A stretch of 64,000 nt of DNA, from assembly GCF_003096595.1 (NCBI RefSeq), contig NZ_QEKO01000001.1:434001-498000 (forward strand), written 5' to 3'. This document shows, piece by piece, positions 47,587 through 63,062 of this stretch. Source of the stretch: Pusillimonas noertemannii (GTDB taxonomy: Bacteria; Pseudomonadota; Gammaproteobacteria; Burkholderiales; Burkholderiaceae_B). Numbering within the stretch: position 1 is the first letter of the stretch; each line of letters opens with the position of its first letter. A program made the translations under genes and the position numbers. The notes under the pieces were generated by a model. The model saw only the letters and a program-made list of their open reading frames with translations. It did not search any database and was not told where the DNA came from.

Positions 47587-47979
47587 TCAGTTTGTGGCGG
47601 CGGCCGCGGGCAAAGCCGCGATCATCTGTATTTCAACCAGGCTGCCGTGGTGCAGTTCTGGCACGGGCACCACTGTCCGGGCAGGCTTGTGCTGTTCAAA
47701 GAACGAAGCATATACCTCGTTGAAGGCGGGCCAGTTGCCGGTACCGACAATGTAGGCGGTGCATTGCACCACATCGGCAAGGCCGCAGCCCGACCGGGCG
47801 AGTATCTTCTTGCTCTGCTCAAGAACCTGCCCGACCTCGGCCTTGAAATCGTCGGGTTGGCGCGTGGCGGGCAGTACGCCCGATAGAAAGACAAAGCCGT
47901 CGCACACCACCGCGGGTGAATAGTGGCCTGCGGGTGGATTGGCGGGGTTGTCGATAAGGCGCATAGTGGGTTGTTTCAT
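47587..47979 (-). CDS. RidA/YjgF-family protein
   Basis: This is a 130-residue Rid protein. RidA hydrolyses reactive enamine/imine intermediates such as 2-aminoacrylate. The conserved Arg lies in PARTVVPVPELHHGSLVEIQMIA, and the SGVLP segment is present. It is the last gene of the large minus-strand catabolic unit, 36 bp after the CoxG-type gene. Members in catabolic operons (e.g. the 2-aminomuconate deaminase type) act on pathway intermediates, so a nitrogen-containing intermediate is a reasonable inference. An internal ATG five codons in is a possible alternative start. Confidence 0.85.
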   Translation of the reverse strand: MKQPTMRLIDNPANPPAGHYSPAVVCDGFVFLSGVLPATRQPDDFKAEVGQVLEQSKKILARSGCGLADVVQCTAYIVGTGNWPAFNEVYASFFEQHKPARTVVPVPELHHGSLVEIQMIAALPAAAATN

Positions 47980-48015: not shown

Positions 48016-48669
48016 TCAGGTGGAAAAGGCATACAGGCCCAAGGCGATGGCCAGGACGATGATCGCCGCGGTGGCCCATCGTGCCCCGGGACTGCGCTTC
48101 GGGGATGCCTTGGCGGGGGTGTTTACACGGCCAGGGGTGTCGGCTCGGTCTTTGGCATCGGAAGCGTCCGCCCGTACTTGGGCCGGGTGGGCAATGCCGG
48201 CATCGGCTTCGCCGGCGCCGGGTTCGGCCACAGGCTCGAGTATGGCCTTGAAGCGAGTAAAGAACTGGTCGGCCATCTTCTTTGCCACGCCGTCGATCAG
48301 CCGGGCCCCCACTTGGGCAAGACGGCCGCTTACCGTGGCACCCACCGTGTAGTGCAACACAGTGCCCTCGGGGCTTTCCGACAGATGGACGTTTGCCGTG
48401 CCCTTGCCGGAGCCGGCTGCGCCGCCGGAGCCGTCGAACTGCAGTGTGTATGAGCTTGGCGGAGTGATGTCGGACAGCACCAGCTTGCCGGTAAACCGGG
48501 CCTTGATCGGCCCCACGGTGGCGGTCATGGCGATCTTGTACTGGTTCTGATCGGTAGCTTCGAAGGTGTCGCAGCCGGGGATGCATTGCTGCAGTATCGT
48601 CGGGTCGTTCAATGCAGACCAGACTGTGTCGATGGGCAATGAAAGTGTTTGCTGGCCAGTCAGTTCCAT
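48016..48669 (-). CDS. CoxG-type accessory protein (SRPBCC domain)
   Basis: This is a 217-residue protein with an N-terminal START/Bet v1-like SRPBCC domain of the CO dehydrogenase subunit G family. The domain starts MELTGQQTLSLPIDTVWSAL and includes the IPGCDTFE motif. An Ala/Pro/Asp-rich linker and one C-terminal transmembrane helix (ATAAIIVLAIALGLYAF) follow. In CO dehydrogenase systems CoxG anchors the enzyme to the membrane, and a similar anchoring role for the molybdenum hydroxylase encoded directly upstream is likely. It begins three bases after the [2Fe-2S] subunit gene. Confidence 0.85.
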   Translation of the reverse strand: MELTGQQTLSLPIDTVWSALNDPTILQQCIPGCDTFEATDQNQYKIAMTATVGPIKARFTGKLVLSDITPPSSYTLQFDGSGGAAGSGKGTANVHLSESPEGTVLHYTVGATVSGRLAQVGARLIDGVAKKMADQFFTRFKAILEPVAEPGAGEADAGIAHPAQVRADASDAKDRADTPGRVNTPAKASPKRSPGARWATAAIIVLAIALGLYAFST

Positions 48670-48672
48670 CGG

Positions 48673-49167
48673 CTATGCCTCTTGTTGTGCGGTGTTGATG
48701 CGGCTGGCGGCGAGCCGCACCGCCTGTATGATTTCCGGATACGCGGCGCAGCGGCAAAGATTGCCCGAAAGATGGTTCCGTATCTCGGCTTCAGAGGGGT
48801 CGGGGTTGGATTCGAGCAGTTGCTTGCTCATCAGCAGGAAACCCGAGGTGCAAAAACCGCACTGGAACGCGCCGCAGTCGATGAAGGCCTGCTGGATGGG
48901 ATGCAGGCTGCCGCCGGCATCGAGGCTTTCAACGGTTTGCACGGTGCAGCCGTCAAGCGCCGCGGCCAGGTAAAGGCATCCGCTGACACTCTTGCCGTCG
49001 ACGATCACGGTGCAACAGCCGCATAGCCCCTGCCCGCAGCTTTCCCGTGCGCCATAAAGCGAGAAGGTGTTGCGCAGGACATCGAGTACCGTGTGGTGGG
49101 TTTCAATGACCGCCTGGACCTTCTCGTGGTTGAGCACGAAGTTTATTTGCATGGTGTTGCTGCTCAT
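48673..49167 (-). CDS. molybdenum hydroxylase, [2Fe-2S] small subunit
   Basis: This is a 164-residue iron-sulfur subunit of a xanthine dehydrogenase-family enzyme. It has the two expected cluster motifs. The plant-type ferredoxin cluster has cysteines in ESCGQGLCGCC and SGCL near residues 43-65. The second, helical cluster has CGAFQCGFCTSG and GNLCRCAAYPEI near residues 100-145. It passes electrons from the Mo site toward the FAD subunit. Its start overlaps the stop of the large-subunit gene (ATGA). Confidence 0.92.
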   Translation of the reverse strand: MSSNTMQINFVLNHEKVQAVIETHHTVLDVLRNTFSLYGARESCGQGLCGCCTVIVDGKSVSGCLYLAAALDGCTVQTVESLDAGGSLHPIQQAFIDCGAFQCGFCTSGFLLMSKQLLESNPDPSEAEIRNHLSGNLCRCAAYPEIIQAVRLAASRINTAQQEA

Positions 49168-51476
49168 GGTGTCTCCGGGTTCAGGTGGGGCGCAGACTGG
49201 TGCAGTGCGCGGCAGAGTGTTTCGTACTTCATGGGCAGGCTCGTCAGCCGCACGCCCACGGCGTCTTCGATGGCGGCGGCCACCGCCGAGGCGACGCCGT
49301 AGCAGCCGGTTTCACCCACGCCTTTCGCGCCGAACGGGCCGTTGTGCTGATATGAATCGACGATCTCGGTATGAATATGGCGGGGCACGTCATGAATGCC
49401 GGGAATCTTGTATTCAGCGAAAGAGGCATTGCGCAGCTGGCCCTGGTCGTCGAAATCCATTTCCTCGTACAGGGCGGCCCCCAGCTGCATGATCGCCGCG
49501 CCCGACAACTGTGTTTCAACGATGGCGGGGTTAAGGGGCGTGCCAAGGTCGCCCACGTTTTCAAGGCGTACGATGCGGAATTGCCCGGTTTCAGTGTCGA
49601 CCTCGACCTCGACGCCCGTGGCGCCCACCATCCAGTTGGGTGTGATGTTGGGCGATTGTCCTGTTTGCTTGTCGGGCGAGACATAATCGGGAATGAAGCC
49701 GCCCGTGCCGATGATGTTGCCCGCCTGCATGCCATAGCGCTTTACCAGCAGCTTGGCAGCGTCGGGCTTTTCGTCTGGATCCATGCCCAGTTCCTGGGCC
49801 AGCGCCTGCATTTTCTGCAAGGCGTCTTCGGCGGCAAGGCGCACCGCGTGGCCCATATGGAAGGTAGACCTCGAGCCCAGCGTAGCCATGTCGTAGGGGG
49901 TGACGTCGGTGTCGGGGTGGATTACACGCACCACGGCAGGGTCCAGGCCCAGCACTTCGGCGGCGATCATGGCCAGGACGGTGTCCGAGCCCTGGCCCAT
50001 GTCTACGGTGCCGGCATGGACGAAGCAGCTTCCGTCCGCCGAAAGGTTCACGATGGCCATCGAGGTGGTGGGCGCCACCAGCGCCTTGTAGCCGATTCCA
50101 ACGCCGCGTCCCCGGCGGATGGCGTCCGTGCCATGGTCGAAGGGCTTATCCCAGTCCATGCGCTGGGCAAGGCAGTCGAGGGTTTGCACCAGGGCCGCAT
50201 CTTTCATGACGGTGCTCGTCGCATGGGGCCGTCCGTCGCGCAGCAGGTTGATGCGGCGAAACTCGACCGGGTCGATGCCCAGTTCGCGGGCAATGATGTC
50301 GGCCTGGCTTTCGTATGCCCACACCATCTGGGTAATGCCGAAGCCCCGGAATGCGCCGGCCGGCGGCAAGTTGGTGTAGATCTGGTACGAGTCGATGGAA
50401 ACGTTGTCGATGTCGTAGGGGCCGGCGGCCGTGAACCCCGACTTCTGGGTAACGCGCGGGCCTATGTCGGCAAAGGCGCCGCCGTTCCACCATACCTCGC
50501 ATTCGCGGCCCGTGATGCGGCCTTCTTTGCTGACCGCCGACTTGATCCGGAAGGTGGTGGCATGCTTTGTAATGGTGTAGAACTGCTCTTCCATGGTAAG
50601 CGCGACCCGCACGGGCAGGCGGCTGATCAGGCTGAGGGCGGCGGCAAGCGCCTCGAGCTTGACGTACAGCTTCGCGCCGAAGCCCCCGCCCAGAAGGGCG
50701 GTCCGCACCCGCACCCTGCTTTCGGGCCAGCCCAGCAGGCGCGCTACCTCGAGCCGCACGAAAGAGGGGCTTTGCGAGGCGGTGTGTATGGTTATTCCGC
50801 CCTCTTTGAGCTCGGCCAGCGACACCATGGGTTCAAGCGGGGTGTGCATGACCTGCTGGGTGCGGAAAGTGTGTTCAAAGACGTGGTCGGCCTGGGCGAA
50901 CGCCTTCGACACATCGCCGTGGCGAACATGGAAGTCGAGGGCGACGTTGGTTTCTTTTTTTCCGGCCAGATGCTTGAGATCGGGGAAGGTGCCCGCCGGC
51001 TTGAGCGCATCATGGACGAATACATTCGACGTGGCGGCCTCTACTTCGTTGAACACCGCCGGCAGTTCTTCGTATTCGACCTGTATCAGGTGCAGGGCTT
51101 CTTCGGCGACGTAGGGGTCGCGCGCCAGCACGACGGCCACGGGTTCGCCCACATAGTGCACTTTGTCGATGGCCAGTATGGGCTGGTCGTGAAAGGCGGG
51201 GCCGAAATAGGGTTCGGGTATGACACCCAGGATCTCTTGCGAGGTCACTACGGAATGCACGCCTTCAAGTGCTTTTGCCGCTTCGGCGTCGATGGACATG
51301 ATGCGGCCGTGCGCCACCGTGCTGCGCAAGATCTTGGCATGCAGCATGCCGGGCAGCGCCAGGTTGTGGATGTACTCGGCGCGCCCCGTTACCTTGGAAT
51401 GGGATTCGACGCGTGGCCGCGAATGCTTCAGCTGGCTCCACTGCGTGGCTTCAGGTTCAAGGTCAATGAGCGTCAT
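49164..51476 (-). CDS. molybdenum hydroxylase, molybdopterin-binding large subunit
   Basis: This is a 770-residue catalytic subunit of the xanthine dehydrogenase/aldehyde oxidase superfamily. It hydroxylates an activated carbon with water as oxygen source. The active-site motif is GAFRGFG, not the AYxCSFR of true CO dehydrogenases, and the catalytic Glu is in KGVGETGCYG near the C-terminus. The ATG at 51476 lies 14 bases inside the upstream FAD-subunit gene and has an AAGGGGGC ribosome site, so the longer frame to 51512 is not used. The subunit order FAD-Mo-FeS with CoxG following is that of Cox-like operons. The substrate is probably an aldehyde or N-heteroaromatic, but cannot be fixed. Confidence 0.9.
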   Translation of the reverse strand: MTLIDLEPEATQWSQLKHSRPRVESHSKVTGRAEYIHNLALPGMLHAKILRSTVAHGRIMSIDAEAAKALEGVHSVVTSQEILGVIPEPYFGPAFHDQPILAIDKVHYVGEPVAVVLARDPYVAEEALHLIQVEYEELPAVFNEVEAATSNVFVHDALKPAGTFPDLKHLAGKKETNVALDFHVRHGDVSKAFAQADHVFEHTFRTQQVMHTPLEPMVSLAELKEGGITIHTASQSPSFVRLEVARLLGWPESRVRVRTALLGGGFGAKLYVKLEALAAALSLISRLPVRVALTMEEQFYTITKHATTFRIKSAVSKEGRITGRECEVWWNGGAFADIGPRVTQKSGFTAAGPYDIDNVSIDSYQIYTNLPPAGAFRGFGITQMVWAYESQADIIARELGIDPVEFRRINLLRDGRPHATSTVMKDAALVQTLDCLAQRMDWDKPFDHGTDAIRRGRGVGIGYKALVAPTTSMAIVNLSADGSCFVHAGTVDMGQGSDTVLAMIAAEVLGLDPAVVRVIHPDTDVTPYDMATLGSRSTFHMGHAVRLAAEDALQKMQALAQELGMDPDEKPDAAKLLVKRYGMQAGNIIGTGGFIPDYVSPDKQTGQSPNITPNWMVGATGVEVEVDTETGQFRIVRLENVGDLGTPLNPAIVETQLSGAAIMQLGAALYEEMDFDDQGQLRNASFAEYKIPGIHDVPRHIHTEIVDSYQHNGPFGAKGVGETGCYGVASAVAAAIEDAVGVRLTSLPMKYETLCRALHQSAPHLNPETP

Positions 51477-52350
51477 GGTCGGCCCCCTTGTTCGATGTAT
51501 TGATGGCCGCATTTACGGTGCGGCCCAGGTAGATGCTGAGCAGGTGTTTCTTGTAGCCCGCCGAGCCATGCTGGTCGCTTACGATGTCCAGCGCATCGGT
51601 CGCCGCCATGCCCACCTGCTTGAGGTGCCCGGCCTCGGCGGCTGCGCCGCGCAGCATGGCCTCGGCCTTTGCCAGGCGCGTCGGCCTGTCGGTCGCGGCC
51701 CCCAGCACGACGCTGGCTTCCTGGATGACCTGGCCCTCGAGCCTGAGCGATACGGCCAGGCCCAGCGCGGGCCAGTCGTGGGCAGCACGGGTCGTTACTT
51801 TGCTGTATGCGGCACAGGCGCCATCCATGGCGGGCACGACGACCTCGGAAATGAGCTCGTTTCGTTCGAGCACTGTTTCGTAGTAGCCCACGCACAGGTC
51901 TTCGACGGCGATCTCGCGGCTGCCCGAAGGGCCGGTGGCGATGACCGTGGCGCCCAGGGCGGACAGGACCGGCGGCATGTCCATGTGCGGATCGGCATGG
52001 GCGAGGTTGCCCCCTATGGTTGCCACATTGCGCACCCGCTGGTTTGAAAGCGAGCGGAAGGTTCTTGCAAGCACGGGCCAGCCCGTACGCACCAGGGGCG
52101 AGTTCTCGAGCGAGGCCAGGGTTGCCATGCCGCCTATGCGCAGGGCGCCTTTCTGGTCGATTTGAATCTGCCCATGCCGGCCTTCGAGGCGCCGCAGGCT
52201 GACCAGCCGCGTGGGCCGCAGCACGCCGGCTTTCATCATGAGCATGACGGCGGTGCCTCCGCCCACCGGACGGATGTCGGGGTCTTCGGGGTCGAGCAGG
52301 CTGATCGCCTCATCGAGCGTATGCGGCGTCAAGTATTCGAATGGGATCAC
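51463..52350 (-). CDS. molybdenum hydroxylase, FAD-binding subunit
   Basis: This is a 295-residue medium subunit of the CoxM type. The FAD-binding motif is VGGGTAVMLMMKAG near residues 30-42, and the second flavin motif RNVATIGGNLAHADP is near 106-120. The C-terminal domain follows the CO_deh_flav_C pattern. It accepts electrons from the [2Fe-2S] subunit. The gene begins with an ATGA overlap at the end of the alpha/beta hydrolase gene. Confidence 0.9.
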   Translation of the reverse strand: MIPFEYLTPHTLDEAISLLDPEDPDIRPVGGGTAVMLMMKAGVLRPTRLVSLRRLEGRHGQIQIDQKGALRIGGMATLASLENSPLVRTGWPVLARTFRSLSNQRVRNVATIGGNLAHADPHMDMPPVLSALGATVIATGPSGSREIAVEDLCVGYYETVLERNELISEVVVPAMDGACAAYSKVTTRAAHDWPALGLAVSLRLEGQVIQEASVVLGAATDRPTRLAKAEAMLRGAAAEAGHLKQVGMAATDALDIVSDQHGSAGYKKHLLSIYLGRTVNAAINTSNKGADHDAH

Positions 52351-53222
52351 TCGGGGTCTCCTTGTGTTTGGGCGGCGGCCTGGCCCTGCTGCGCATCCAG
52401 GCCTTCCAGCAATCGTTCCAGCGTGTTGACGATTACGTCGGGTGTCTCGATGGGAGTCAGGTGGCAGGCCTCGGGAATGATCGTGAGCGTGGAGCCCTGG
52501 ATCGATTCATGCAGGTATCGGGACATTGCGACGGGGGCGGCGTAGTCGTTGGCGCCCACGACGACGGCTGTGGGGGCGCTTACCTGGGCGACTCGGGTGC
52601 TTGCATTGAAGCGGCCCAGTGCGCGGCATGCCTCGCCGTAGGCCTCGACGTCATTGGCAAGAAAGGTATCCACGCATTGCCGCAGCAGCTCTGGCTGGTC
52701 GGTGCGGAACTGTTCGCTGAACCATCGGGTGGCCTGGAACTGCACCATGCTGTCCAGCCCATCGGTCTTTGCCTTCTGTGCCCGCTTCGACCAGTCGTCG
52801 GGCGCGGTGGGTCCATACCACGAGGTGGTGTCGACCAGCCCCAGCGCCGCGGTCATTTCGGGGTGGTCTATGGCAAACTGAAGCGCAACGCAGCCCCCCA
52901 GCGAGGCCCCGGCCACAACGGCCTTGCGGTAGCCCAGGGCCTGGAGCACTTCTTTGACGTCTTGCGCGAAAAGCTCGATGGAATAGGGCCCGGGCGGCTT
53001 GCCCGACTGGCCATGGCCGCGCACGTCGACGCAAACGACGTGCGCCCTTGCCGCGATGGCCGGGGCGACCAGGCGCCAGAACCGGTGGTCGAGCGCCAGG
53101 GAGTGCACCAGCACGACACACTGGCTTGAAGAGGCCTGCCGATAGTGCTGGTAGTGTATGAGGGTGCCATCGCCGACGGCTACTTTGCCGGTCGTGACGC
53201 CCGTGCTGTCTGCTGCTGCCAT
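52347..53222 (-). CDS. alpha/beta-fold hydrolase
   Basis: This is a 291-residue cytoplasmic hydrolase resembling 3-oxoadipate enol-lactonase (PcaD) and C-C bond hydrolases. The oxyanion region is VVLVHSLALDHRFW, the nucleophile elbow GASLGG, the acid is in VVGANDYAAP and the His in PEACHLTPIE. It sits between the Mo-hydroxylase genes and the binding-protein-like gene, and overlaps the FAD-subunit gene by four bases. It may open a lactone or remove an acyl group in the pathway. Confidence 0.85.
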   Translation of the reverse strand: MAAADSTGVTTGKVAVGDGTLIHYQHYRQASSSQCVVLVHSLALDHRFWRLVAPAIAARAHVVCVDVRGHGQSGKPPGPYSIELFAQDVKEVLQALGYRKAVVAGASLGGCVALQFAIDHPEMTAALGLVDTTSWYGPTAPDDWSKRAQKAKTDGLDSMVQFQATRWFSEQFRTDQPELLRQCVDTFLANDVEAYGEACRALGRFNASTRVAQVSAPTAVVVGANDYAAPVAMSRYLHESIQGSTLTIIPEACHLTPIETPDVIVNTLERLLEGLDAQQGQAAAQTQGDPE

Positions 53223-53272: not shown

Positions 53273-54034
53273 CTACACGGTGCCGGGCGGCGGAATGAAC
53301 AGCGGCGGCTGGCCGCTGCGCTTGAAGCCGTCGGCGATAAACCCCGACTGCTTGGCCTGCCGCACATATTGCTGCAGGAATGCGGCGGCCAGCGGCCGGC
53401 CGCGCGGGCAGCCCACGGCTTGTTCGATCAGGGTGAAGCAGCCGTCCAGCACGCGAAAGCCGCCCTGGCTTTCGGCGAACTGCTCGAGTGGCTGGCGGAT
53501 ACCCGCAGCCACTTCCAGTCCGGCGCCCGAAAACTGCCGCAGGGAGGCCTCGGAGGTTTCAAAACGGACGATTTCGGCCTGTTGCAGGTGGCGGGTAAGG
53601 AAGAGGTCGTAGGCCGTGCCTTCCCCGACAGCCACCTTGATCCCTGGCTTGTCGACGTCTTCCTGGCTGCGTATGGATGACGATTCAATGACCATATAGG
53701 TGCCTTCGATGTGCACATAGGACTCGGAGTAAAGAATGTCGATGGCGCGCTTGGGGTCTATGGCCAGGAAGGCGATGTCCCAGACATCTTGCATGGCGCA
53801 TTGCGAGACCTTTCCGGCCGAATCGAATTCTTTGAACTCGACCGGCAGGCCCAGCCTATTGCCAATGTCGCGCGACATGTCCACCGTGACCCCGGCCAGT
53901 TGTCCGCTGGCCGGGTCTTTCTGCACCAGAATGGGGTTGCCCAGGTTAAGCGCCACCCGCAGGACTTTGGCCGGGGCAAGCTCGGCGATGGTTTGCCGGT
54001 CGGCGTCCAGCTTGCTGCTGTCTTTCATTGCCAT
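53273..54034 (-). CDS. family-3 solute-binding protein without signal peptide
   Basis: This is a 253-residue protein with the PBPb/SBP_bac_3 fold. It opens VLRVALNLGNPILVQKDPASGQLAGVTVDMSRDIGNRLG, including the usual VDMSRDI segment, and goes through ILYSESYVHIEGTYMV and GIKVAVGEGTAYDLFLTRHL. The N-terminus (MAMKDSSKLDADRQ) is hydrophilic and there is no secretion signal or lipobox in any in-frame extension I examined. The protein should therefore stay in the cytoplasm. No partner permease or ATPase of the amino-acid type is near. A cytosolic ligand-binding or cyclohydrolase-type enzymatic role is possible. Confidence 0.75.
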   Translation of the reverse strand: MAMKDSSKLDADRQTIAELAPAKVLRVALNLGNPILVQKDPASGQLAGVTVDMSRDIGNRLGLPVEFKEFDSAGKVSQCAMQDVWDIAFLAIDPKRAIDILYSESYVHIEGTYMVIESSSIRSQEDVDKPGIKVAVGEGTAYDLFLTRHLQQAEIVRFETSEASLRQFSGAGLEVAAGIRQPLEQFAESQGGFRVLDGCFTLIEQAVGCPRGRPLAAAFLQQYVRQAKQSGFIADGFKRSGQPPLFIPPPGTV

Positions 54035-54076: not shown

Positions 54077-55162
54077 TTAAACCTCTTCCAGCACAGCGAA
54101 GGAATGCTCGGGCACCAGGGGGGGAGGCGCAACGACATAGCGCGAGTCTTCGGCTTCGTGCTTCAGCCGCTGTTCAAGCAGGCGCCGGGCCCGAACCGGG
54201 GCTTCGTCAAGCTTGATGGCTACGTTCGGCACAGAAGTATTCATGCGCACCATTTGCTGCTGCTGGATTTCAAGCACCTCTTTGTCTTCGTCGAACGTGG
54301 CCGAAGACGCCTTGCGTATGCCTTCGGTAAGCTCGGCGTCGTCCAGCCGGTAGTTGCGCACGAACGCCCAGAAGTAGTGGGTGCTGCCCGGGGATTCGGG
54401 CGTAAGCAGGTGCAGCACATGGCCGATGCGCGCTTCGGTACGGTCTTCTTCGACGGGATGCACGCCCACCACCGTAAGATTGATGGAGGGCACGAGGTGT
54501 ATGGCCGATTGCCAGCGGTTGATGCGGCAGGGGTGGCCGATGACCAGGGCGAAAAAGGGCGGCGCCTCGATATTGGGCATTTCGCGGTGGGCCCGGACCA
54601 GGCTATCTTGCTCGACCGTCACCTTGGCGGTGTAGGCGGCAATGGTCTCTTCTTCGTCATTGCCGATGGTGCGGCTGTGCACATAGGTTTCATGGCTGAG
54701 GTCGAGCAGATTGTCGTTGAGCAGGGTGTAGTGCGCCTCGATGCGGTGATAGCCTTGGGACGACGCCCATCCGGGGCTGTTGTGCCAATGCACGTCGGGG
54801 ATCAGGCCGGGGTCGGCCAGCCCGGCATCGCCCATCCAGATCCAGACAAAGCCGTGGCGCGCCTGGACGGGGTATGTGGCAACGCGGGCCGCCGCGGGAA
54901 TGTTGGTCTGGCCGGGCACCGACGTGCAGGCGCCGTCGGCCGAGAAGCACATGCCGTGGTAGCCGCACTGCATGTCGTCGCCTACCCGCTTGCCTTTCGA
55001 AAGCGGCAGCAGGCGGTGCGGGCAGCAATCGTCCATCGCCGAGTAAACGCCCTGCGAGGTGCGATACAGCACCAGGGGAACGTCGAGTATGCGTCTTGAA
55101 ATGAAGGGCTCGTCGAATTCATGCTCGAAGCCCGCTACGTACCAAGTGTTTCGAATGAACAT
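54077..55162 (-). CDS. Rieske non-heme iron oxygenase, alpha subunit
   Basis: This is a 361-residue ring-hydroxylating or O-demethylating oxygenase of the VanA/TsaM-like class. The Rieske cluster ligands are C47 and H49 (CCPHR) and C66 and H69 (CGYHG). The mononuclear iron site is H157 and H162 in DNLLDLSHETYVH with bridging D154. It needs an electron-transfer reductase, which is not encoded in the window, so it must borrow one. It lies between the transporter genes and the binding-protein-like gene. The reaction is probably hydroxylation or demethylation of an aromatic acid. Confidence 0.9.
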   Translation of the reverse strand: MFIRNTWYVAGFEHEFDEPFISRRILDVPLVLYRTSQGVYSAMDDCCPHRLLPLSKGKRVGDDMQCGYHGMCFSADGACTSVPGQTNIPAAARVATYPVQARHGFVWIWMGDAGLADPGLIPDVHWHNSPGWASSQGYHRIEAHYTLLNDNLLDLSHETYVHSRTIGNDEEETIAAYTAKVTVEQDSLVRAHREMPNIEAPPFFALVIGHPCRINRWQSAIHLVPSINLTVVGVHPVEEDRTEARIGHVLHLLTPESPGSTHYFWAFVRNYRLDDAELTEGIRKASSATFDEDKEVLEIQQQQMVRMNTSVPNVAIKLDEAPVRARRLLEQRLKHEAEDSRYVVAPPPLVPEHSFAVLEEV

Positions 55163-55192: not shown

Positions 55193-55897
55193 CTAGACGC
55201 TTACGCCCAGCCAGCGATTCAGCAATGCCTGGTCGTGCCTGAGCTCGTGTGCCGGGCCCTGATGCACCACCGTGCCGCGGTCAAGGATTACCGCGCGCTG
55301 CGATATGGCCAGAATAAGTTGTGGGTGCTGTTCAACGATGATTACGCTCAAGCCTTCGTTCTTTGTGACGTTTTCGATGCCGCGCAAGACTTCTTCGACG
55401 AGTATGGGCGCCAGGCCTTCGGTGGGCTCGTCAAGCAGCAGCAGCCTGGGGTTGAGCACCAGGGCGCGCCCTATGGCAAGCATCTGCTGCTCGCCGCCCG
55501 AAAGCTGTGCGCCCATGTTTCCCTTGCGTTCGGCCAGCCTGGGGAAGGTGTCGTAGACCTTGGCCGGCGTCCAGGAGCCTGGCCGCGCCACGGCAGTGAG
55601 GTTTTCGTGAACGGTGAGCGACCTGAAAATATTGCGCTCTTGGGGTACCCAGCCTATGCCCGCCCTTGCGCGCACGTGGGGGGCCAGGTGCTCGAGGGGC
55701 TGGCCGCCAAGCTGTATCGAACCCTTGTGCCGCCGGGTTACGCCCACTACCGTATTGATCAGCGTCGTCTTGCCCGTGCCGTTGCGGCCCAGCAGCGCGA
55801 GTGTTTCGCCCTGGTCGAGCGACAGCGAGACGTCGTTAAGGACGATCGAGTCGGCGTAGCCCGCGTGCAGGCCTTCTATGTTCAGCATGTCAGGCAT
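55193..55897 (-). CDS. Liv-type ABC transporter ATPase (LivF-like), second system
   Basis: This is a 234-residue ATP-binding subunit. Walker A is GRNGTGKT, the signature is LSGGEQQMLAIGRAL, and Walker B is LLLLDEPTEGLAP. The start at 55897 is eight bases inside the LivG-like gene (ATGCCTGACATG arrangement), and the longer in-frame extension is spurious. It closes the five-gene importer of the catabolic unit. The Rieske gene follows after 30 bp. Confidence 0.88.
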   Translation of the reverse strand: MPDMLNIEGLHAGYADSIVLNDVSLSLDQGETLALLGRNGTGKTTLINTVVGVTRRHKGSIQLGGQPLEHLAPHVRARAGIGWVPQERNIFRSLTVHENLTAVARPGSWTPAKVYDTFPRLAERKGNMGAQLSGGEQQMLAIGRALVLNPRLLLLDEPTEGLAPILVEEVLRGIENVTKNEGLSVIIVEQHPQLILAISQRAVILDRGTVVHQGPAHELRHDQALLNRWLGVSV

Positions 55898-56684
55898 AGC
55901 GCACCTCGCTTTGCGCCGTTTCGTCCGTGCCGGCGCCATGGCCCAGGTAGACCTCTTTGACGCGAGGGTCGTTCGAGACGGTAAGCGGGTCGGCTTCCAT
56001 CAGCAGAGCGCCGTTCACCAGCACCGTCATGCGATTGGCAAAGCTGAAGACCAGGTCCATGTCGTGTTCGATGAGCAGAATGGACATGTCGGCCGGAAGC
56101 GCATTGATGATGGCCAGGATGTCGCTGCGCTCGCTGGCGGGCACGCCCGCCACGGGCTCGTCCAGCAGCAGCACCCGCGGCTCGCAGGCCAGGGCGATGG
56201 CGATTTCAAGCTGGCGCCGCTTGCCGTAAGGCAGCTGGCTGGTGGGGCGGCTCATGACGTCGAGCAGGCGAAACTGCTCGAGCAAGGCATGGCATCGTTC
56301 GGTGATGTTGCGGTCGGCGCCCAGCAGCCGCCACATCTTGCTTCCCAGGCCGCTGCGTTCGCCCACGACGGCAGCCAGGGTTTCCAGGGGCGTAAGGGTT
56401 TCGAACAGCTGGTTGATCTGGAAGGTGCGCACGAGGCCGCGCGCCGATCTTTTGTGCATGGGCAGCGTGGTGATGTCACGGCCGTCGAGGTGAATGGTGC
56501 CGCTTGACGGCCGCAAGACCCCCGTCAACAAATTGACGAAGGTCGTCTTGCCCGCCCCGTTGGGGCCTATCAGTGCGTGGCGGGCGCCTTTTTTCAGGTT
56601 CAGCGACACATTGTTGGTGGCCAGCAGGCCTCCGAATCGCATGACCAGGCCCGAGGCTGACAGCGCATAGGGTTCTTCAGCCAT
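55890..56684 (-). CDS. Liv-type ABC transporter ATPase (LivG-like), second system
   Basis: This is a 264-residue ATP-binding subunit with Walker A GPNGAGKT, the signature LPYGKRRQLEIAIAL and Walker B VLLLDEPVAGVPA. The RTFQINQLFETLTPLE segment identifies the LivG class. It overlaps the LivM-like gene by eight bases at its start and the LivF-like gene at its end. Confidence 0.88.
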   Translation of the reverse strand: MAEEPYALSASGLVMRFGGLLATNNVSLNLKKGARHALIGPNGAGKTTFVNLLTGVLRPSSGTIHLDGRDITTLPMHKRSARGLVRTFQINQLFETLTPLETLAAVVGERSGLGSKMWRLLGADRNITERCHALLEQFRLLDVMSRPTSQLPYGKRRQLEIAIALACEPRVLLLDEPVAGVPASERSDILAIINALPADMSILLIEHDMDLVFSFANRMTVLVNGALLMEADPLTVSNDPRVKEVYLGHGAGTDETAQSEVRYA

Positions 56685-57651
56685 GGGGGCCTCCTTTGAA
56701 CCAGGTCCAGGGGCGTATCAGGCGATCGCGTCCGACCCGCATCAGCAGCACCAGGAACACCCCCACCCAGAAGGTCCAGTACTGGGGAGTGAGATCGGAC
56801 AGCACATGGTGCAGGCCGATGAACACGATTGCGCCGATGACGCCGCCGTATATCCATGCCGTTCCGCCGATGACGACCATCAGCAGCACGTCGGCCGATC
56901 TTTCGAACGCGAAGGCATCGAGCGAGGCGAAGTTCATGCTGTGGGTTTGCACCGCCCCGGCCGCCGCCGCGATGGCGCCGGCCAATGTGTAGGCCAGCTT
57001 GATGCGCCGGTTGGTGTCGATGCCGATGGAGTAGGCCCGCAGGCGATTGTCGCGTATGACCCGCAGGCTGGTCCCGAACGGCGAGTTGACGATGCGCCGG
57101 TAGACAACCAGGAACACCGCCAGCACGGCCAGCGAGTAATAGGCTGCTGTGACGCCGTCGAATGTAAATGGAAACAGCCCCAGAACGGGATCCATGACGA
57201 CCCCTTGCAGGCCGTCCGCGCCCCCGGTGAGCCAGGTCATGTAGTTGCCGATCTCGAGCAAAATGAGCGACACGCCCAGGGTGACCATGACGACGGTAAG
57301 CGCACTGCCCCGCAGAATGGTGTAGCTGCAGACATAGGCGGTAAGGCCGCCCACGCCCATGGCGAAAACCAGCCCCACAATGGGCTCGGGCATGACGAAC
57401 TTGGCGAAAAGGCCCGCTGCGAAGGCCCCCATGCCGAAGAACGCGGCATGCCCCAGCGACATGATTCCGGCGTATCCAAGGACAAGGTCGAGAGAGATCG
57501 CAAACAGGGCCATGATGGCCATCTGGTTGACCAGGAAAGAGCTGCCCGGAAACAATGCCACCACCGCAAGCGGCGCAAGCCACAGAACGGGTTCCCAGAG
57601 CTTGACGCGGGTTTTCTCGCGCAGGGCGTCGTGAACGGCGGCGGGCGTCAT
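56677..57651 (-). CDS. Liv-type ABC transporter permease (LivM-like), second system
   Basis: This is a 324-residue inner-membrane subunit with about nine hydrophobic segments and the LivM motif LVLGYAGIMSLGHAAFFGMG. The ATG at 57651 overlaps the LivH-like stop (ATGA) and is chosen over one 13 codons upstream. The C-terminus is basic and cytoplasmic (PWTWFKGGPHG). Confidence 0.87.
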   Translation of the reverse strand: MTPAAVHDALREKTRVKLWEPVLWLAPLAVVALFPGSSFLVNQMAIMALFAISLDLVLGYAGIMSLGHAAFFGMGAFAAGLFAKFVMPEPIVGLVFAMGVGGLTAYVCSYTILRGSALTVVMVTLGVSLILLEIGNYMTWLTGGADGLQGVVMDPVLGLFPFTFDGVTAAYYSLAVLAVFLVVYRRIVNSPFGTSLRVIRDNRLRAYSIGIDTNRRIKLAYTLAGAIAAAAGAVQTHSMNFASLDAFAFERSADVLLMVVIGGTAWIYGGVIGAIVFIGLHHVLSDLTPQYWTFWVGVFLVLLMRVGRDRLIRPWTWFKGGPHG

Positions 57652-58520
57652 TTGGCACCTCTTCTGACAAACAGGCCATCGGGGCGCCACAGCAGGATCA
57701 TGATCATGACCGCATAGACGATGAAGGATCCGAGCTTAGGCATGTAGTACTTGCCCGCGACATCGGCAACGCCCAGTATCAGCGCGGCGAGCAGGGGGCC
57801 GGTAAGCGACGAGGTCCCGCCCAGGGCGACCACGATCAGAAAATAGATCATGAACTTGAACGGAAAGGTGGGGTCGAGGCCCAGCACCTCGGCGCCCATG
57901 GCGCCCCCCACTCCGGCCAGGCCCGAACCCACGGCAAATGTCGAAAAGAAGATGACATTGACGTTGATGCCCAGCCCGTCGGCCACGCGCTGGTCATCGA
58001 CCGCGGCGCGCAGCCGGCTTCCGAACCGGGTGCGCGTAAGGATGAACTGCAGCAGTATCGTCAGCACGATACAGACCGCGATGATCAGCAGCCGATAGTG
58101 CCCCATGCCCAGCACATGGCCGCCGAACGAAAGCTCGGTGCGGCCGCGCAGCCACTGGGGCAACTGGATGATCTGTTCGCTCGAGCCTATGCTGTAGTCG
58201 ACGATGGTCATGGCGATGAACGCCAGGCCGATGGAGAAAAGCACCTGGTCGAGGGGCGGCTTGCCGTACATGGGCCGGTACAGGGTGCGCTCGAGAATCG
58301 CACCCAGCACCGCGGTAACCACGAAGGCTATCGGCACGCACAGCAGGAAGGGCACGTTCAGGTGCTGCATGAGCAGCACCGTGACGTACCCGCCCGCCAT
58401 GGCAAAGGCCCCGTGCGCCAGGTTGATGAAGTTCATCAGCCCCAGCGTCACGGAAAGCCCTATTGCCAGTATGAACAGCAGCATCCCGTAGGCGACGCCG
58501 TCAAAGAGTATGGTCAGCAT
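57648..58520 (-). CDS. Liv-type ABC transporter permease (LivH-like), second system
   Basis: This is a 290-residue inner-membrane subunit with about eight hydrophobic segments, the N-terminal motif GLSVTLGLMNFINLAHGAFAMAGG and the C-terminal VVALGGTSSLTGPLLAALILG loop. It starts one base inside the stop of the binding-protein gene (TAATG), so it is translationally coupled to it. Confidence 0.88.
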   Translation of the reverse strand: MLTILFDGVAYGMLLFILAIGLSVTLGLMNFINLAHGAFAMAGGYVTVLLMQHLNVPFLLCVPIAFVVTAVLGAILERTLYRPMYGKPPLDQVLFSIGLAFIAMTIVDYSIGSSEQIIQLPQWLRGRTELSFGGHVLGMGHYRLLIIAVCIVLTILLQFILTRTRFGSRLRAAVDDQRVADGLGINVNVIFFSTFAVGSGLAGVGGAMGAEVLGLDPTFPFKFMIYFLIVVALGGTSSLTGPLLAALILGVADVAGKYYMPKLGSFIVYAVMIMILLWRPDGLFVRRGAK

Positions 58521-59704
58521 TATTTCGTTTCGCCGGCGGCGTTGACGCGTTCAATGACGTCGAACTCGACGTTCTGATATTCGTCTCCGACTTTCTCGAC
58601 CTTGCGCATGTAGATGTTCTGGATGAAATCGCGCGATTCAGGGTCGAGGGTGACCGGTCCGCGAGGGCTTTCGAACGAAAGGTTCTTCATGGCGTCGACG
58701 AAGGCCATGCCCTCGGCCTTGCCATCGGTCTTGCGCAAGGCCTCGTAGATGAGATGCATGCCGTCGTAGCCCGCGACGCCGAAGAAGTTGGGCCGGCTGG
58801 TGCCATCGATGCTTTTGTACGTTTCGATGAACTTGCGGTTCATTTCCGAATCGTGCGAGGTGGCGTAGTAATCAGAGGTGATGACGCCCAGCGCGGCGTC
58901 GCCGGCCTGGTTCAGGTTGTCGTCGTCGGTGATGGCGCCATGGCCGATAAGGCGTATGCCCGCGGCGGCCAGGCCTCGCTGGCCGTATTGCTTGAGCAGG
59001 GCCGCGCCGGGTCCCGAGGGCAGCATGACGAACAGGGCGTCGGGCTTTACGTCGCGAACGCGCTGCAGGAAGGGCGCAAAGTCGGGGTTGCGCATGGGCA
59101 CCCGGATCTCTTCAAGAATCTTTCCGCCCGCGGCCAGAAAGTATTTTTTGAAAGCCTCTTCGGATTCATACCCGGGCGCGTAGTCGGGTACCAGCGTGAC
59201 GGCGGTCTTGATGTCGTTTTCGACCGCCCACTGGGCAATGCCCGAGGTTACCTGCGTAATGGTTCCGCTGGAGCGCACCATGTACGGAGACGCCTCGGTA
59301 TTGGCCTGGGTCTGCGCGGCCATCAGCACCATCGGCGTTTTTGATTGTGTGGCGATGGGAGCCACGGCGAGGGTGATGGGTGTAAGGCCGAAGCCGGCAA
59401 TGACATCGACGTCGTCATTGACGATCAGTTCTTGCGCCAGCTTTCGCGAGTTGGCGGCGACGCCGTTGTCGTCCTTGAGAATGACCTGTATCTTGCGGCC
59501 AGCGACCGTGTCGCCGTGGTCCTTCATGTATGCCTGCACGGCCGAATGAAGCTGGCGTCCGGTAGAGGCGAAGGCGCCGGTCATGGGAACGATCAGGCCG
59601 ACCTTGAAGGGTTTCTCGGCGGCTTGGATTGCAGGGGCATGCAGGCCGGTGGCGGCGATGGCGAACGCGCACAGTGCCGTGCGCAGAAATAGCCTTTTTT
59701 TCAT
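58520..59704 (-). CDS. Liv-type ABC transporter substrate-binding protein, second system
   Basis: This is a 394-residue periplasmic binding protein of the peripla_BP_6 family. The signal peptide is at residues 1-29 (ending IQAAE) and the mature start FKVGLIVPMTGAFASTGRQL. The ATG at 59704 has GGAGACAAACGCC before it and is preferred over an upstream ATG at 59761. The presence inside a ring-cleavage operon suggests an aromatic or heteroaromatic acid as ligand rather than a branched-chain amino acid. It differs strongly from the binding protein at 12891-14114. Confidence 0.88.
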   Translation of the reverse strand: MKKRLFLRTALCAFAIAATGLHAPAIQAAEKPFKVGLIVPMTGAFASTGRQLHSAVQAYMKDHGDTVAGRKIQVILKDDNGVAANSRKLAQELIVNDDVDVIAGFGLTPITLAVAPIATQSKTPMVLMAAQTQANTEASPYMVRSSGTITQVTSGIAQWAVENDIKTAVTLVPDYAPGYESEEAFKKYFLAAGGKILEEIRVPMRNPDFAPFLQRVRDVKPDALFVMLPSGPGAALLKQYGQRGLAAAGIRLIGHGAITDDDNLNQAGDAALGVITSDYYATSHDSEMNRKFIETYKSIDGTSRPNFFGVAGYDGMHLIYEALRKTDGKAEGMAFVDAMKNLSFESPRGPVTLDPESRDFIQNIYMRKVEKVGDEYQNVEFDVIERVNAAGETK

Positions 59705-59812
59705 GGCGTTTGTCTCCGTTGTTTTATTTGATGAATCAGGAACTGCTAGGTCAAGGCACACCTCGGTAAGTCTGGATATTGCTGGGGTTTCGTTGCGGTG
59801 TTGCGGGTGTGT

Positions 59813-61006
59813 TCAGTACACCTTTTCTTCGAGCTCAAGGCCACGATACAGCCAGTCGAGCTCCCAGGGAATATCTACGTTTCGCTTGCGTGCCATCTCG
59901 TTGCGCAAGAGGCGCTCGCCGTCGGTGGCGTGCATGATGGCGCCGAACAGCCGGGCGGTGGTCACGACACGCGCCGTCCGGTTCAGGCGGCGGCCTTGAT
60001 AGTCGAGGAACGCCGCATTGACATTCTTGGGCTGGCGTTCAAGCGCGTCGCCAAGCACGACCGCGTCTTCCATGGCCATGATGGCCCCCTGGGCCAGGTA
60101 TTGCAGCGTTGCATGGGCGGCATCGCCCAGCAGGGTAACGTTGCCGTCGGTCCAGTTGCTGGCGGGCCGCAGGTCGTGCAGCAGCCAGTTCTTGTCCAGA
60201 GAGAAATACTTGAGCAGGTCCTGCACTTCGGGGGCGCAGTCGACATAGGCGGCCTTGAGCTCGTCGATGCCCCCGTAGTCGTGTTCCCAGCGCTTGAAGG
60301 CGGGGCTTTCGAACGTGGCGACGTTGTTCATAACGGTGCCTCCGCGCAGGCGGTATTGCACAAGATGGCAGCCCGGGCCCGCGTACATGACCATGGAATT
60401 TACATATCGCTGGTTGACGATGTCTTCGATGGGTACAAGCCCCCGGTACACCACATGCCCCGTATTGCGCGGGCCGCCGTCGTTGACGATGCGGGCGCGG
60501 GTTTTGGAGCGCAGGCCCTCGACGCCGATCATGGCCCGCCCCTGCAGCATCTTGCCATTGGTGCATGTTACGGTAACCCCGTTCGGGCGGTTTTCGTAGC
60601 TGTCCACCTCGCCTTCTTCGAAGCTGAAGCAATCCTGCTGCCTGCACGCCTCGATCAGCGCGGCATGCAGGTCGCGCCTGTGCACCACGAAATAGCGGTA
60701 TTTGTACCGCTCTTGAAAGCTGGCGCCCAGGTCGATGCGGGAAATCTCTTTCGCATCGACGGCATCGACCAGTACGAGGGCATCGGGATAAAAGACCTGG
60801 GACTCCAGGCGTTCCATTACGCCCATGCGGTCGAGAATGGCGTGGCCGTTTGGCGCTATCTGGATGCCGTAGCCAATTTCGCCGACCTCTGGAGCACGCT
60901 CAAGCACCTTTACTGGAAACCCCTTGCGTGTCAGTGCCAGGGCTGTGCAAAGCCCGCCGATGCCGCCACCGGCGATGATGAACGGTAAAGATTCCTGTGT
61001 ATCCAT
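59813..61006 (-). CDS. FAD-dependent monooxygenase, 3-hydroxybenzoate 6-hydroxylase type
   Basis: This is a 397-residue group-A flavoprotein monooxygenase. The FAD-binding GGGIGG is at 13-18, a DG-type region follows the middle sheet, and the second FAD motif VTLLGDAAHATLQYLAQGA is near residue 290. The segment GYGIQIAPNGHAILDRMG resembles 3-hydroxybenzoate 6-hydroxylase and salicylate hydroxylase-type enzymes. In its pathway context it would make a para-dihydroxylated ring (gentisate-like), the substrate for the dioxygenase encoded just upstream. Its start is separated from that gene by 128 bp with a hairpin. Confidence 0.85.
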   Translation of the reverse strand: MDTQESLPFIIAGGGIGGLCTALALTRKGFPVKVLERAPEVGEIGYGIQIAPNGHAILDRMGVMERLESQVFYPDALVLVDAVDAKEISRIDLGASFQERYKYRYFVVHRRDLHAALIEACRQQDCFSFEEGEVDSYENRPNGVTVTCTNGKMLQGRAMIGVEGLRSKTRARIVNDGGPRNTGHVVYRGLVPIEDIVNQRYVNSMVMYAGPGCHLVQYRLRGGTVMNNVATFESPAFKRWEHDYGGIDELKAAYVDCAPEVQDLLKYFSLDKNWLLHDLRPASNWTDGNVTLLGDAAHATLQYLAQGAIMAMEDAVVLGDALERQPKNVNAAFLDYQGRRLNRTARVVTTARLFGAIMHATDGERLLRNEMARKRNVDIPWELDWLYRGLELEEKVY

Positions 61007-61134: not shown

Positions 61135-62181
61135 CTAGCCGAACTGCTCGCGCCAGAGATCAAGCGCCTGCTGTACGGGTCGATCGGAATAGCTGAACAG
61201 CACGGCGTCGCCTTGGTCGGTGATGTCGAAGCGGTGGGGCATCCAGGAAGGGCAGACGAGCACGTCTTTGGGGCCGAATTCAAGGGTACTGTCGCCGACC
61301 ACGCAGCGGCCGTGGCCTTCAACCACCACGTACACGGTGGAATCGGTGGACCGATAGGGTTTTCCCTGGAACGACTTGGGCATCAGCTGCATGAAGGTGC
61401 CCATGGTGGGTATGGCCCAGCCGCCGGTTGCCGGATTGGTGTATTGCAGCTTGAGGCCCCAGCATTCGTGCCATTCATTGTGCTGCTTCATGGTTTCGAG
61501 TGCTTCGCGCGTACGCTCGTAGGGGTACCAGAACAGGGGCGATGTTTTCGAACGGGGCTGGTATTGAACCGGCTTCATGGAGTTGCCGAACTCGGCCAGG
61601 TTGGCGTGCGCCGTTATGTTCGTGCTTTGGCTCTCTTGGCTGCCTTTTTCCATGAATTGCGCATCGAGCAGCTCTACCAGCGGGACATCGAGCCCGTCGA
61701 GCCACACCATGGGTTCATCGCTGGGGTTGCCGTGGTCGTGGAATGTCCAGGAGGGCGTAATGACGAAGTCGCCTACGTTCATGAAGACTTTTTCGCCATT
61801 GACCGCCGTGTATGCGCCCGACCCGTGCATGATGAACCGCAGGGCGGATTGAGAGTGGCGATGCGCGGGGGCGATCTCGCCCGGCAGTATCAATTGAAGC
61901 CCCGCGTACAGGCTGTGTGTTATGCGAGTCTGGCCGCGCAGGCCGGGGTTCTCGAGTACCAGCACGCGGCGCTCTGCCTCTTGGGCCGATATGAGTTCGC
62001 CGGCCTGAAGCAGCCAGGGGAAGGCGGTTTCCCATTTCCAGACATGCGGCAGACAGGGGGTTTTGGGCAAGGGGGTGACCAGGCTGTGCAGGACCTCCCA
62101 GAGCGGGGTCATCTGGTCGTTGCTGATCTTCTGATAGAAATGCTCTCGGGCGGCGGTATCTGTTGCGACGGGTGTATCCAT
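61135..62181 (-). CDS. gentisate 1,2-dioxygenase-type bicupin (copy 2)
   Basis: This is a 348-residue Fe(II) ring-cleavage dioxygenase. The first cupin has HxH ligands H107 and H109 in PAHRHSQSALRFIMHG and a further His in WTFHDHG. The second cupin is around residues 260-330 (VYVVVEGHGRCVVGD). The ATG at 62181 is preferred because GGGGAG lies six bases upstream. An ATG five codons earlier is possible. It should cleave gentisate or a substituted relative between the carboxyl- and hydroxyl-bearing carbons. The FAH-type hydrolase gene is 23 bp upstream, the usual next enzyme. Confidence 0.85.
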   Translation of the reverse strand: MDTPVATDTAAREHFYQKISNDQMTPLWEVLHSLVTPLPKTPCLPHVWKWETAFPWLLQAGELISAQEAERRVLVLENPGLRGQTRITHSLYAGLQLILPGEIAPAHRHSQSALRFIMHGSGAYTAVNGEKVFMNVGDFVITPSWTFHDHGNPSDEPMVWLDGLDVPLVELLDAQFMEKGSQESQSTNITAHANLAEFGNSMKPVQYQPRSKTSPLFWYPYERTREALETMKQHNEWHECWGLKLQYTNPATGGWAIPTMGTFMQLMPKSFQGKPYRSTDSTVYVVVEGHGRCVVGDSTLEFGPKDVLVCPSWMPHRFDITDQGDAVLFSYSDRPVQQALDLWREQFG

Positions 62182-62204
62182 TGTGGGGCTCCCCATGGCG
62201 TGGT

Positions 62205-63062
62205 TCAGGCGGACGTGACGGCGACCTGCATGCGGCCGATTTTTTCGAACTCGGCCACGATGGTGTCGCCGGGCTTTACGGGGCCTACGCCTTCAGGCGT
62301 ACCGGTGTATATGACGTCGCCCGGGTGCAGGGTGTAGAAGCTGGAGGCGTATTCGACCAGTTCGGGTATGTTCAGGACGAGATCGCGCGTATTGGCTTTT
62401 TGGCGGGTTTCGCCGTTTACGGTGAGCTGGAAGTCGAGGTTTGTGGCGTCGCCCATTTCGTCGGCGGTGACCATCCAGGGGCCAAGCACGCTATAGCTGT
62501 CGACCGATTTGCGCAGGCTGCGTTCTTCGGGGCCGCGTACCGTCATGTCGAGCCCTATGGTGTAGGCCGCGATGTGGTCCCAGGCGTCTTGCTTCTTGAT
62601 GCCGGTGCCGGGCTTGCCGATGATGATGGCCAGTTCGATTTCGTGGTCGTTGCGGCGGTCGTGATGCCGCACCGACACGGGCTGGCTCGCGCCGATCAGG
62701 GAACTGGTGGCCTTGAGAAACAGGCCGATGCGCTGGATTTCAATGACCTGGCTGTTATGGTGGATTTCGGAGTCGGCCCGGGCCTCTTCGAGGTGCTTCA
62801 GGTAGTTGACCGGCGCAGCGACCAGTTTTCCGGGGTTGGCCACGGGGCTCAGCAGCTTTACCTGGTCTATTTTTTTGCGGGGAGCGTCGGGCATGAGCTG
62901 CCGTGCACGTGCACAGACTTCATCGAGATGCGCGATGAGGGGGTCGTGCCTTGGCAAGGGATAGGTGCTGGCTGGAATGACATCGAGAGCCGTTGTGATG
63001 TCCAGTACTTGATCACCCTCTATGACGCCCAGGCGGTCGTCATCAAATCTGCAAAGCTTCAT
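62205..63062 (-). CDS. fumarylacetoacetate hydrolase-family protein
   Basis: This is a 285-residue FAH-family hydrolase, the first gene of the catabolic unit. The N-terminal domain begins MKLCRFDDDRLGVIEGDQV. The catalytic domain has the metal-binding Glu in HDRRNDHEIELAIIIGKPG and the signature VIYTGTPEGVGPVKPGD. In gentisate pathways such proteins hydrolyse fumarylpyruvate to fumarate and pyruvate, or maleylpyruvate directly. No maleylpyruvate isomerase is encoded in the window. The start faces the divergent LysR gene, 106 bp away. Confidence 0.9.
   Translation of the reverse strand: MKLCRFDDDRLGVIEGDQVLDITTALDVIPASTYPLPRHDPLIAHLDEVCARARQLMPDAPRKKIDQVKLLSPVANPGKLVAAPVNYLKHLEEARADSEIHHNSQVIEIQRIGLFLKATSSLIGASQPVSVRHHDRRNDHEIELAIIIGKPGTGIKKQDAWDHIAAYTIGLDMTVRGPEERSLRKSVDSYSVLGPWMVTADEMGDATNLDFQLTVNGETRQKANTRDLVLNIPELVEYASSFYTLHPGDVIYTGTPEGVGPVKPGDTIVAEFEKIGRMQVAVTSA

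Follow-up and report, generated by a model that had tools for sequence, protein, structure and literature searches.

P0001, a protein encoded in a gene run with a gentisate dioxygenase in Pusillimonas noertemannii, is best explained as a cytosolic isomerase that uses the family-3 solute-binding-protein (SBP) fold to act on an unsaturated di- or tricarboxylate, a reading to which, taken whole, we give a probability of about 45%. That the protein is an enzyme of some kind is probable, and that it resides in the cytosol appears nearly certain. Its relatives make up a large family without a name, most members of which appear to lack an export signal. The features that we draw on, all legible in sequence, are the fold, the absence of a signal, the family, gene fusions, operon contexts and a set of conserved positions.

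Results

The gene of P0001 (T, a label that we also use for its relatives) lies on the minus strand of the window, the 64,000-nucleotide stretch of DNA analysed here; it starts with an ATG at 54034, and the plus-strand frame over the same positions is interrupted by a stop. A home-made codon-usage gene caller, the source of our start sites and gene calls, recovers the expected neighbours and also calls P0001, with its start at the second ATG (54028). P0001 has a hydrophilic N-terminus (MAMKDSSKLDADRQTIAELAPAK), and upstream of the ATG at 54034 only 14 codons are open (RLGAAFRNPLQRKS) before the TAA of the Rieske gene, with no ATG, GTG or TTG among them and no lipobox seen. There is therefore no upstream start that could supply a signal peptide, the point on which the original prediction of a protein with neither signal peptide nor lipobox could have failed, and a mis-called start is ruled out.

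At E ≤ 0.001 the sole Pfam match of P0001 is SBP_bac_3 (PF00497; E 2.9e-8, 34 bits against a cut-off of 26.4). The same search found neither a PrpF domain, which rules out a PrpF-type aconitate isomerase, nor the glutathione S-transferase (GST) domain of a GST-type maleylpyruvate isomerase. The structure prediction that had been proposed as a check gave an AlphaFold model (53-row alignment, without ligand; mean pLDDT 94.9) with the type II binding-protein fold, so that both profile score and fold bear out the family-3 pattern first read from the letters. The PDB matches listed by Foldseek for this model are amino-acid binding proteins, cyclohexadienyl dehydratases and glutamate-receptor ligand domains, with VIA-align Z of 18.8–21.1 among the 50 matches listed; they include ArgBP, LAO and CDT. 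By sequence, the best alignment among solved structures is to ancestral dehydratases (5jos, E 1.5e-22 with the family profile).

P0001 belongs to a tight minus-strand run of genes (Table 1) that begins with a fumarylacetoacetate (FAA) hydrolase, a gentisate dioxygenase, a FAD hydroxylase, a branched-chain ABC set (by eye) and a Rieske oxygenase and continues after P0001 with a PcaD-like hydrolase, a three-subunit Mo-hydroxylase and CoxG. Its position between a hydrolase and a Rieske oxygenase, and the lack of partner ABC genes of its own class, are as originally predicted: by eye, no permease or ATPase of the polar amino acid class occurs in the run, only the branched-chain-type set, which has its own binding protein (58520-59761) with an N-terminus (MKKRLFLRTALCAFAIAATGLHAPAIQA) that reads, by eye, as an export signal. 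Among the scanned proteins of the operon there is no aconitase or tricarballylate gene, and hence no aconitate-pathway gene of the kind expected beside an aconitate isomerase (EC 5.3.3.7). Directly after CoxG lies a RidA-family protein (47587-47979, minus strand; TIGR00004 80.1 bits, under the cut-off of 106.25) that may share the operon. A LysR-type regulator (by eye; 63169-64000, plus strand), divergent from the operon and running off the window, is a candidate regulator. Outside the operon, a second gentisate-dioxygenase-like cupin protein (by eye) is encoded at 25812-26948 on the minus strand.

Table 1 Genes of the minus-strand run that contains P0001, in gene order
Feature	Position	Strand	Remark
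Fumarylacetoacetate-hydrolase-family protein	62205..63062	-	
Gentisate 1,2-dioxygenase	61135..62196	-	508.4 bits, cut-off 442.1
FAD monooxygenase, 3-hydroxybenzoate 6-monooxygenase-like	59813..61006	-	405.5 bits, cut-off 459
Branched-chain-type ABC importer: two ATPases, two permeases and a binding protein	55193..59761	-	by eye
Rieske oxygenase, VanA_C domain	54077..55162	-	its TAA closes the upstream frame of P0001
SBP_bac_3-fold protein without signal peptide (P0001, T)	53273..54034	-	253 aa
Alpha/beta hydrolase, PcaD (3-oxoadipate enol-lactonase)-like	52347..53222	-	194.2 bits, under the equivalog cut-off of 255.85
FAD subunit, xanthine-dehydrogenase-type Mo hydroxylase	51463..52350	-	
Mo subunit, same hydroxylase	49164..51512	-	gene caller start 51476
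2Fe-2S subunit, same hydroxylase	48673..49167	-	
CoxG-like protein	48016..48669	-	

On a quick tree P0001 falls into a clade of seven members (SH-aLRT 95; the window clade), none of which carries a signal (0/7). The gene order of the window operon is kept in Pusillimonas caeni (L036) and, up to its contig end, in L037, and parts of it are kept in L038-L041. A Rieske gene lies within three genes of T in 7/7 of these loci, with an identity to that of the window of 67-86% in only three clade relatives and near 34% in the other three. No gentisate dioxygenase was found in the examined region of L036 and L039, both of which keep T. Directly upstream of T in L038 stands a 330-aa protein (L038:9190-10182, minus strand) with no Pfam or NCBIfam match at E ≤ 0.001, which we take to resemble 4,5-dihydroxyphthalate decarboxylase and which is possibly another enzyme on a binding-protein fold.

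A special case of the isomerase reading would make P0001 the missing maleylpyruvate cis-trans isomerase of the gentisate branch. The operon indeed holds a gentisate dioxygenase and an FAA-hydrolase-family gene, 0/11 TIGR01262 matches of the genome fall in the window, and a GST-type isomerase query matched nothing in nine clade loci, some of them overlapping. However, two GST-type isomerase genes over the TIGR01262 cut-off are present elsewhere in the genome, which makes the absence of such a gene from the operon weak evidence, and the two clade loci in which no gentisate dioxygenase was found nevertheless keep T; in addition, the protein to which T is fused in this clade is a hydrolase. We regard this special case as quite unlikely, with maleylpyruvate a possible but not favoured substrate of the window clade. 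The two genes, for maleylpyruvate/maleylacetoacetate isomerases, are cut by contig starts (C1:7-462 and C12:7-465; L133 and L134), and a genome devoid of GST isomerases is thereby ruled out. In both loci the isomerase is followed by hydroxylase-like or gentisate-dioxygenase-like genes and by branched-chain ABC genes (by eye).

At E ≤ 1e-20, 198 of the 268 genomes searched in the taxonomic family of P0001 (about three quarters) have a relative, as do 42 of 398 genomes sampled from the phylum; the genome of P0001 has one copy, and no paralog at E ≤ 0.001 besides P0001 itself. From the match lists 83 loci were picked by hand, spread over genera, before their contexts were known; for L045, L046, L049, L121, L145 and L147, which come from matches with one internal stop, the frame was used only up to its own stop. 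Sorting the N-termini of the 83 loci by a simple hydrophobicity rule left 71 without a signal, 9 flagged and 3 set apart as fused or read-through. Clear signals number 8 of 83, with the flagged L064, which has a normal internal start, judged an artefact of start choice; hydrophobic in-frame upstream extensions of L096 and L104 make a doubtful signal. The eight signal-bearing rows correspond to five state changes on the quick tree, where long branches meet at a chosen root: the outgroup (L122-L124) consists of the most distant signal-bearing rows and does not form one side of any branch. That P0001 is simply an exported ABC binding protein whose start was misread, or that its gene is dying, is very improbable, given the short upstream frame, the mostly signal-less family with its conserved positions and the clade of seven that keeps parts of its operon, even though four annotated plasmid records label relatives of P0001 'ABC transporter substrate-binding protein'; a fifth plasmid record carries no annotation at the corresponding place. 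Among the matches listed in open-licence PMC literature, we found none that deals with an SBP family lacking a signal or with a fusion of aconitase to an SBP.

For comparison with cyclohexadienyl dehydratase, the part of PMC10520331 available to us gives nine active-site residues of PaCDT: Y22, W60, K100, N128, T132, N133, N152, T169 and E173. The family profile was aligned to AncCDT-3 by sequence alone, with the W60 position beside a gap, and the PaCDT numbering was anchored on F156 and M167, both named in the accessible portion of PMC7683729. At the aligned sites P0001 has N33, A73, G111, G137, A141, Y142, S161, G178 and P182, keeping 0/9 residues, with the general acid Glu173 among those not kept, which rules out that P0001 is a cyclohexadienyl dehydratase. 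In the 53-row alignment the first eight of these positions are either invariant or conserved to 90% or more, and they are identical in 7/7 window-clade and 13/13 aconitase-context rows, and Arg96 is kept in 104/104 rows. The 14 remote signal-less rows keep N33, A141, Y142, G178 and R96 (14/14) and differ at 111 (A in 14/14), 137 (S 9, A 4, F 1) and 161 (P 10, L 4); these remote members, from the Tcu, Hpa, 4-oxalomesaconate (OMA) and LigK contexts described below, may therefore have another substrate. Variation at the aligned positions is greater among the eight rows with a signal, and the window clade differs from the aconitase-context rows at 138 (E in 4/7 versus K in 11/13), 140 and 182.

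In this fold we take the position of R96 to be that of the arginine that holds the carboxylate, and that of I179 to be the place of the aspartate that holds the amino group. The latter position is V, L or I in 100 of 104 rows, and P0001 thus lacks the alpha-amino-binding Asp of a polar amino acid ABC binding protein, along with its export signal or lipobox. Since Arg96 is kept and the Asp is replaced, a carboxylate without an alpha-amino group is the likely ligand.

We judge it unlikely that P0001 uses its fold for some other enzymatic reaction, such as the decarboxylation, dehydration or hydration of a ring-cleavage acid. Eliminations are known on this fold from cyclohexadienyl dehydratase (available parts of PMC7683729 and PMC10520331), whose ancestral forms give P0001 its best alignment among solved structures, but the dehydratase residues are absent from P0001, and one T operon, with HpaH and HpaI, already has a hydratase and an aldolase.

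Gene contexts were surveyed in 103 loci; outside the examples that were scanned, neighbours took their names from BLAST matches to these examples or by eye. One recurrent context is an AcnA-like aconitase together with a PF10282 lactonase, TctC and a GntR regulator; on a plasmid of Comamonas antarctica, acnA-GntR-T is annotated as such, with WP_175506326.1 as the aconitase-linked T protein. An AcnA-like aconitase lies within five genes of T in 11 of 83 loci, two fusions counted, against an expected 1.67 PF00330 genes, calculated from 20 chosen genomes (182 matches in 100.5 Mb). The Poisson P of this enrichment, 1.5e-6, ignores relatedness, and the 11 rows represent 10 changes on the quick tree; L150, which was chosen after the aconitase beside it was known, is kept out of the count. 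The link between aconitase and T could also be indirect, for example through a shared regulon. TctC genes are very numerous in these bacteria, and for this reason their presence near T in 34 of 103 loci was not counted as evidence. Many T loci have no informative neighbour.

Other arrangements recur as well. An Ldh_2 dehydrogenase-TctC-MBL hydrolase-T run is found in 12 loci (L064, L067, L073, L129, L151-L153, L156-L158, L160 and L161) and in the annotation of Achromobacter seleniivolatilans. Among the remote members, three (L120, L121 and L149) have an intradiol dioxygenase-HpaH-HpaI-T order, in which the HpaH and HpaI of L120 score over their cut-offs and the dioxygenase over none, and L148 has a LigK aldolase and a PIG-L protein divergent from T. 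In L119 the order is tcuA-tcuB-T, with gaps of -11 and +1 and a TcuA of 683 bits (cut-off 369); TcuA converts tricarballylate to cis-aconitate (title of J Bacteriol 2006, 188:5479, in the reference list of PMC10468695). In the related remote loci L145 and L147, T has a TcuA-family gene nearby as well as an OMA tautomerase. The flavoprotein of L145 reaches 548.9 bits with NF006130 (cut-off 369) and falls short of TIGR02485 (231.4 against 372.55), and the OMA tautomerase of L147 scores 472.8 bits (cut-off 440). A Tcu link as a general rule was dropped: in only one of the seven T-bearing genomes of the order of L119 is tcuA in the T operon, directly upstream of tcuB-T, and tcuA at E ≤ 1e-100 occurs anywhere in 3/7 of these genomes versus 23/114 other genomes. 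The theme common to the telling contexts is unsaturated di- and tricarboxylates.

Two kinds of fusion were found. L055 is a single 1110-aa frame with the Pfam domains Aconitase, Aconitase_C and SBP_bac_3, in which T is the C-terminal part, and L062, from another genus, has the same AcnA-type aconitase-T arrangement by translation (PF00330 match within a 1511-aa frame). At the junction of L055 no ATG precedes the T domain, but an in-frame TTG with GGAGG upstream makes a separate T product possible. In Pusillimonas caeni (L036 and L001, one assembly), the one genome from which the second kind is known, a 533-aa frame joins T, a 70% identical ortholog of P0001, to the PcaD-like hydrolase with no stop between them, where the window has two separate neighbours; here an in-frame GTG at the junction makes a separate hydrolase start possible. 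In L132 (2528-4036, minus strand) a membrane-transporter-like frame runs stop-free into T, which has its own ATG, and this may reflect either a fusion or read-through by the gene caller.

Aconitase acts in the cytosol, and its fusion to T therefore also supports a cytosolic location of T. Together, the mostly signal-less family, the two kinds of fusion and the operon contexts argue for cytosolic location and for recruitment as an enzyme, the part of the original prediction that stands; its analogy with dehydratases does not, given the 0/9 residues and the eight conserved positions of the family itself. The prediction had also allowed for an intracellular sensor or carrier, here a protein that binds the pathway acid, as a buffer or to pass or report it to the enzymes, without turnover. 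In favour of such a role, the fold originally served for binding, 8 of 103 loci have a GntR-type regulator resembling the one in L061 no more than five genes from T, and a carrier or an allosteric domain could equally be fused to an aconitase or a hydrolase. We nonetheless grade this role as less likely than an enzyme, and on its own as improbable, because the telling contexts share enzymes of unsaturated polycarboxylates and no regulator fusion is apparent, judged by the length of the N-terminal part in 83 loci and of the whole protein in a further 20, with C-terminal extensions checked in part; a cytosolic carrier, moreover, would seem rarely needed for small diffusible acids.

Discussion

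In the isomerase reading that we prefer, the two lobes of P0001 would close over an unsaturated di- or tricarboxylate, the invariant Arg96 would hold one of its carboxylates, and the protein would most likely shift a double bond by allylic or cis-trans isomerisation. Catalysis as such, this reaction and the substrate class are what we infer; isomerisation is proposed because it is the simplest reaction that fits the aconitase, TcuA, OMA-pathway and HpaH/HpaI partners. For many relatives the substrate would probably be aconitate or close analogues, and for the window clade a ring-cleavage acid of the gentisate/Mo-hydroxylase pathway, beside the PcaD-like hydrolase, or else an acid derived from a lactone.

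Allylic or cis-trans isomerisation in related metabolism is the work of PrpF enzymes (available parts of PMC5690661 and PMC11495376), and the aconitate isomerases TarA and TbrA belong to the PrpF superfamily (same part of PMC11495376). This superfamily, which also includes PrpF and 4-oxalomesaconate tautomerase, resembles the proposed function of P0001 in reaction type and metabolite class, with the tautomerase near T in L147, but differs in its PrpF domain. The family-3 amino-acid ABC binding proteins LAO, ArgBP and GlnH share the fold and the carboxylate-binding Arg, presumably in the same role as R96, whereas P0001 is without their signal, a partner permease or ATPase in the run and the alpha-amino-binding Asp. 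The aconitate isomerase Ais of Pseudomonas sp. WU-0701 is reportedly a small binding-protein-like enzyme, as P0001 would be, but with a signal peptide; if Ais were homologous to the P0001 family, the function of the family would be fixed. PaCDT/PheC is likewise an SBP_bac_3-type fold turned enzyme and the top sequence match among solved structures, but it is numbered after signal cleavage and thus exported (PMC10520331, in the part available), unlike the signal-less P0001, and differs in its operons and in all nine active-site residues.

More tentatively, this widespread family may be a new structural class of cytosolic isomerases of aconitate-like unsaturated polycarboxylates, an SBP-fold counterpart of the PrpF superfamily that is sometimes fused to aconitase, with the window clade recruited into aromatic degradation next to a hydrolase of the enol-lactonase type, with which it shares a frame in one case. 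Binding proteins turned enzymes are a model for the evolution of catalysis, and few cases are known to us. Here a family with members in about three quarters of the searched genomes of one taxonomic family carries a transport label but seems to function within the cell. If its members are isomerases, this would account for the operons in which aconitase, tricarballylate and aromatic ring-cleavage genes occur, many annotations would be corrected, and aconitate isomerases, which are wanted for trans-aconitate production, would gain a second fold.
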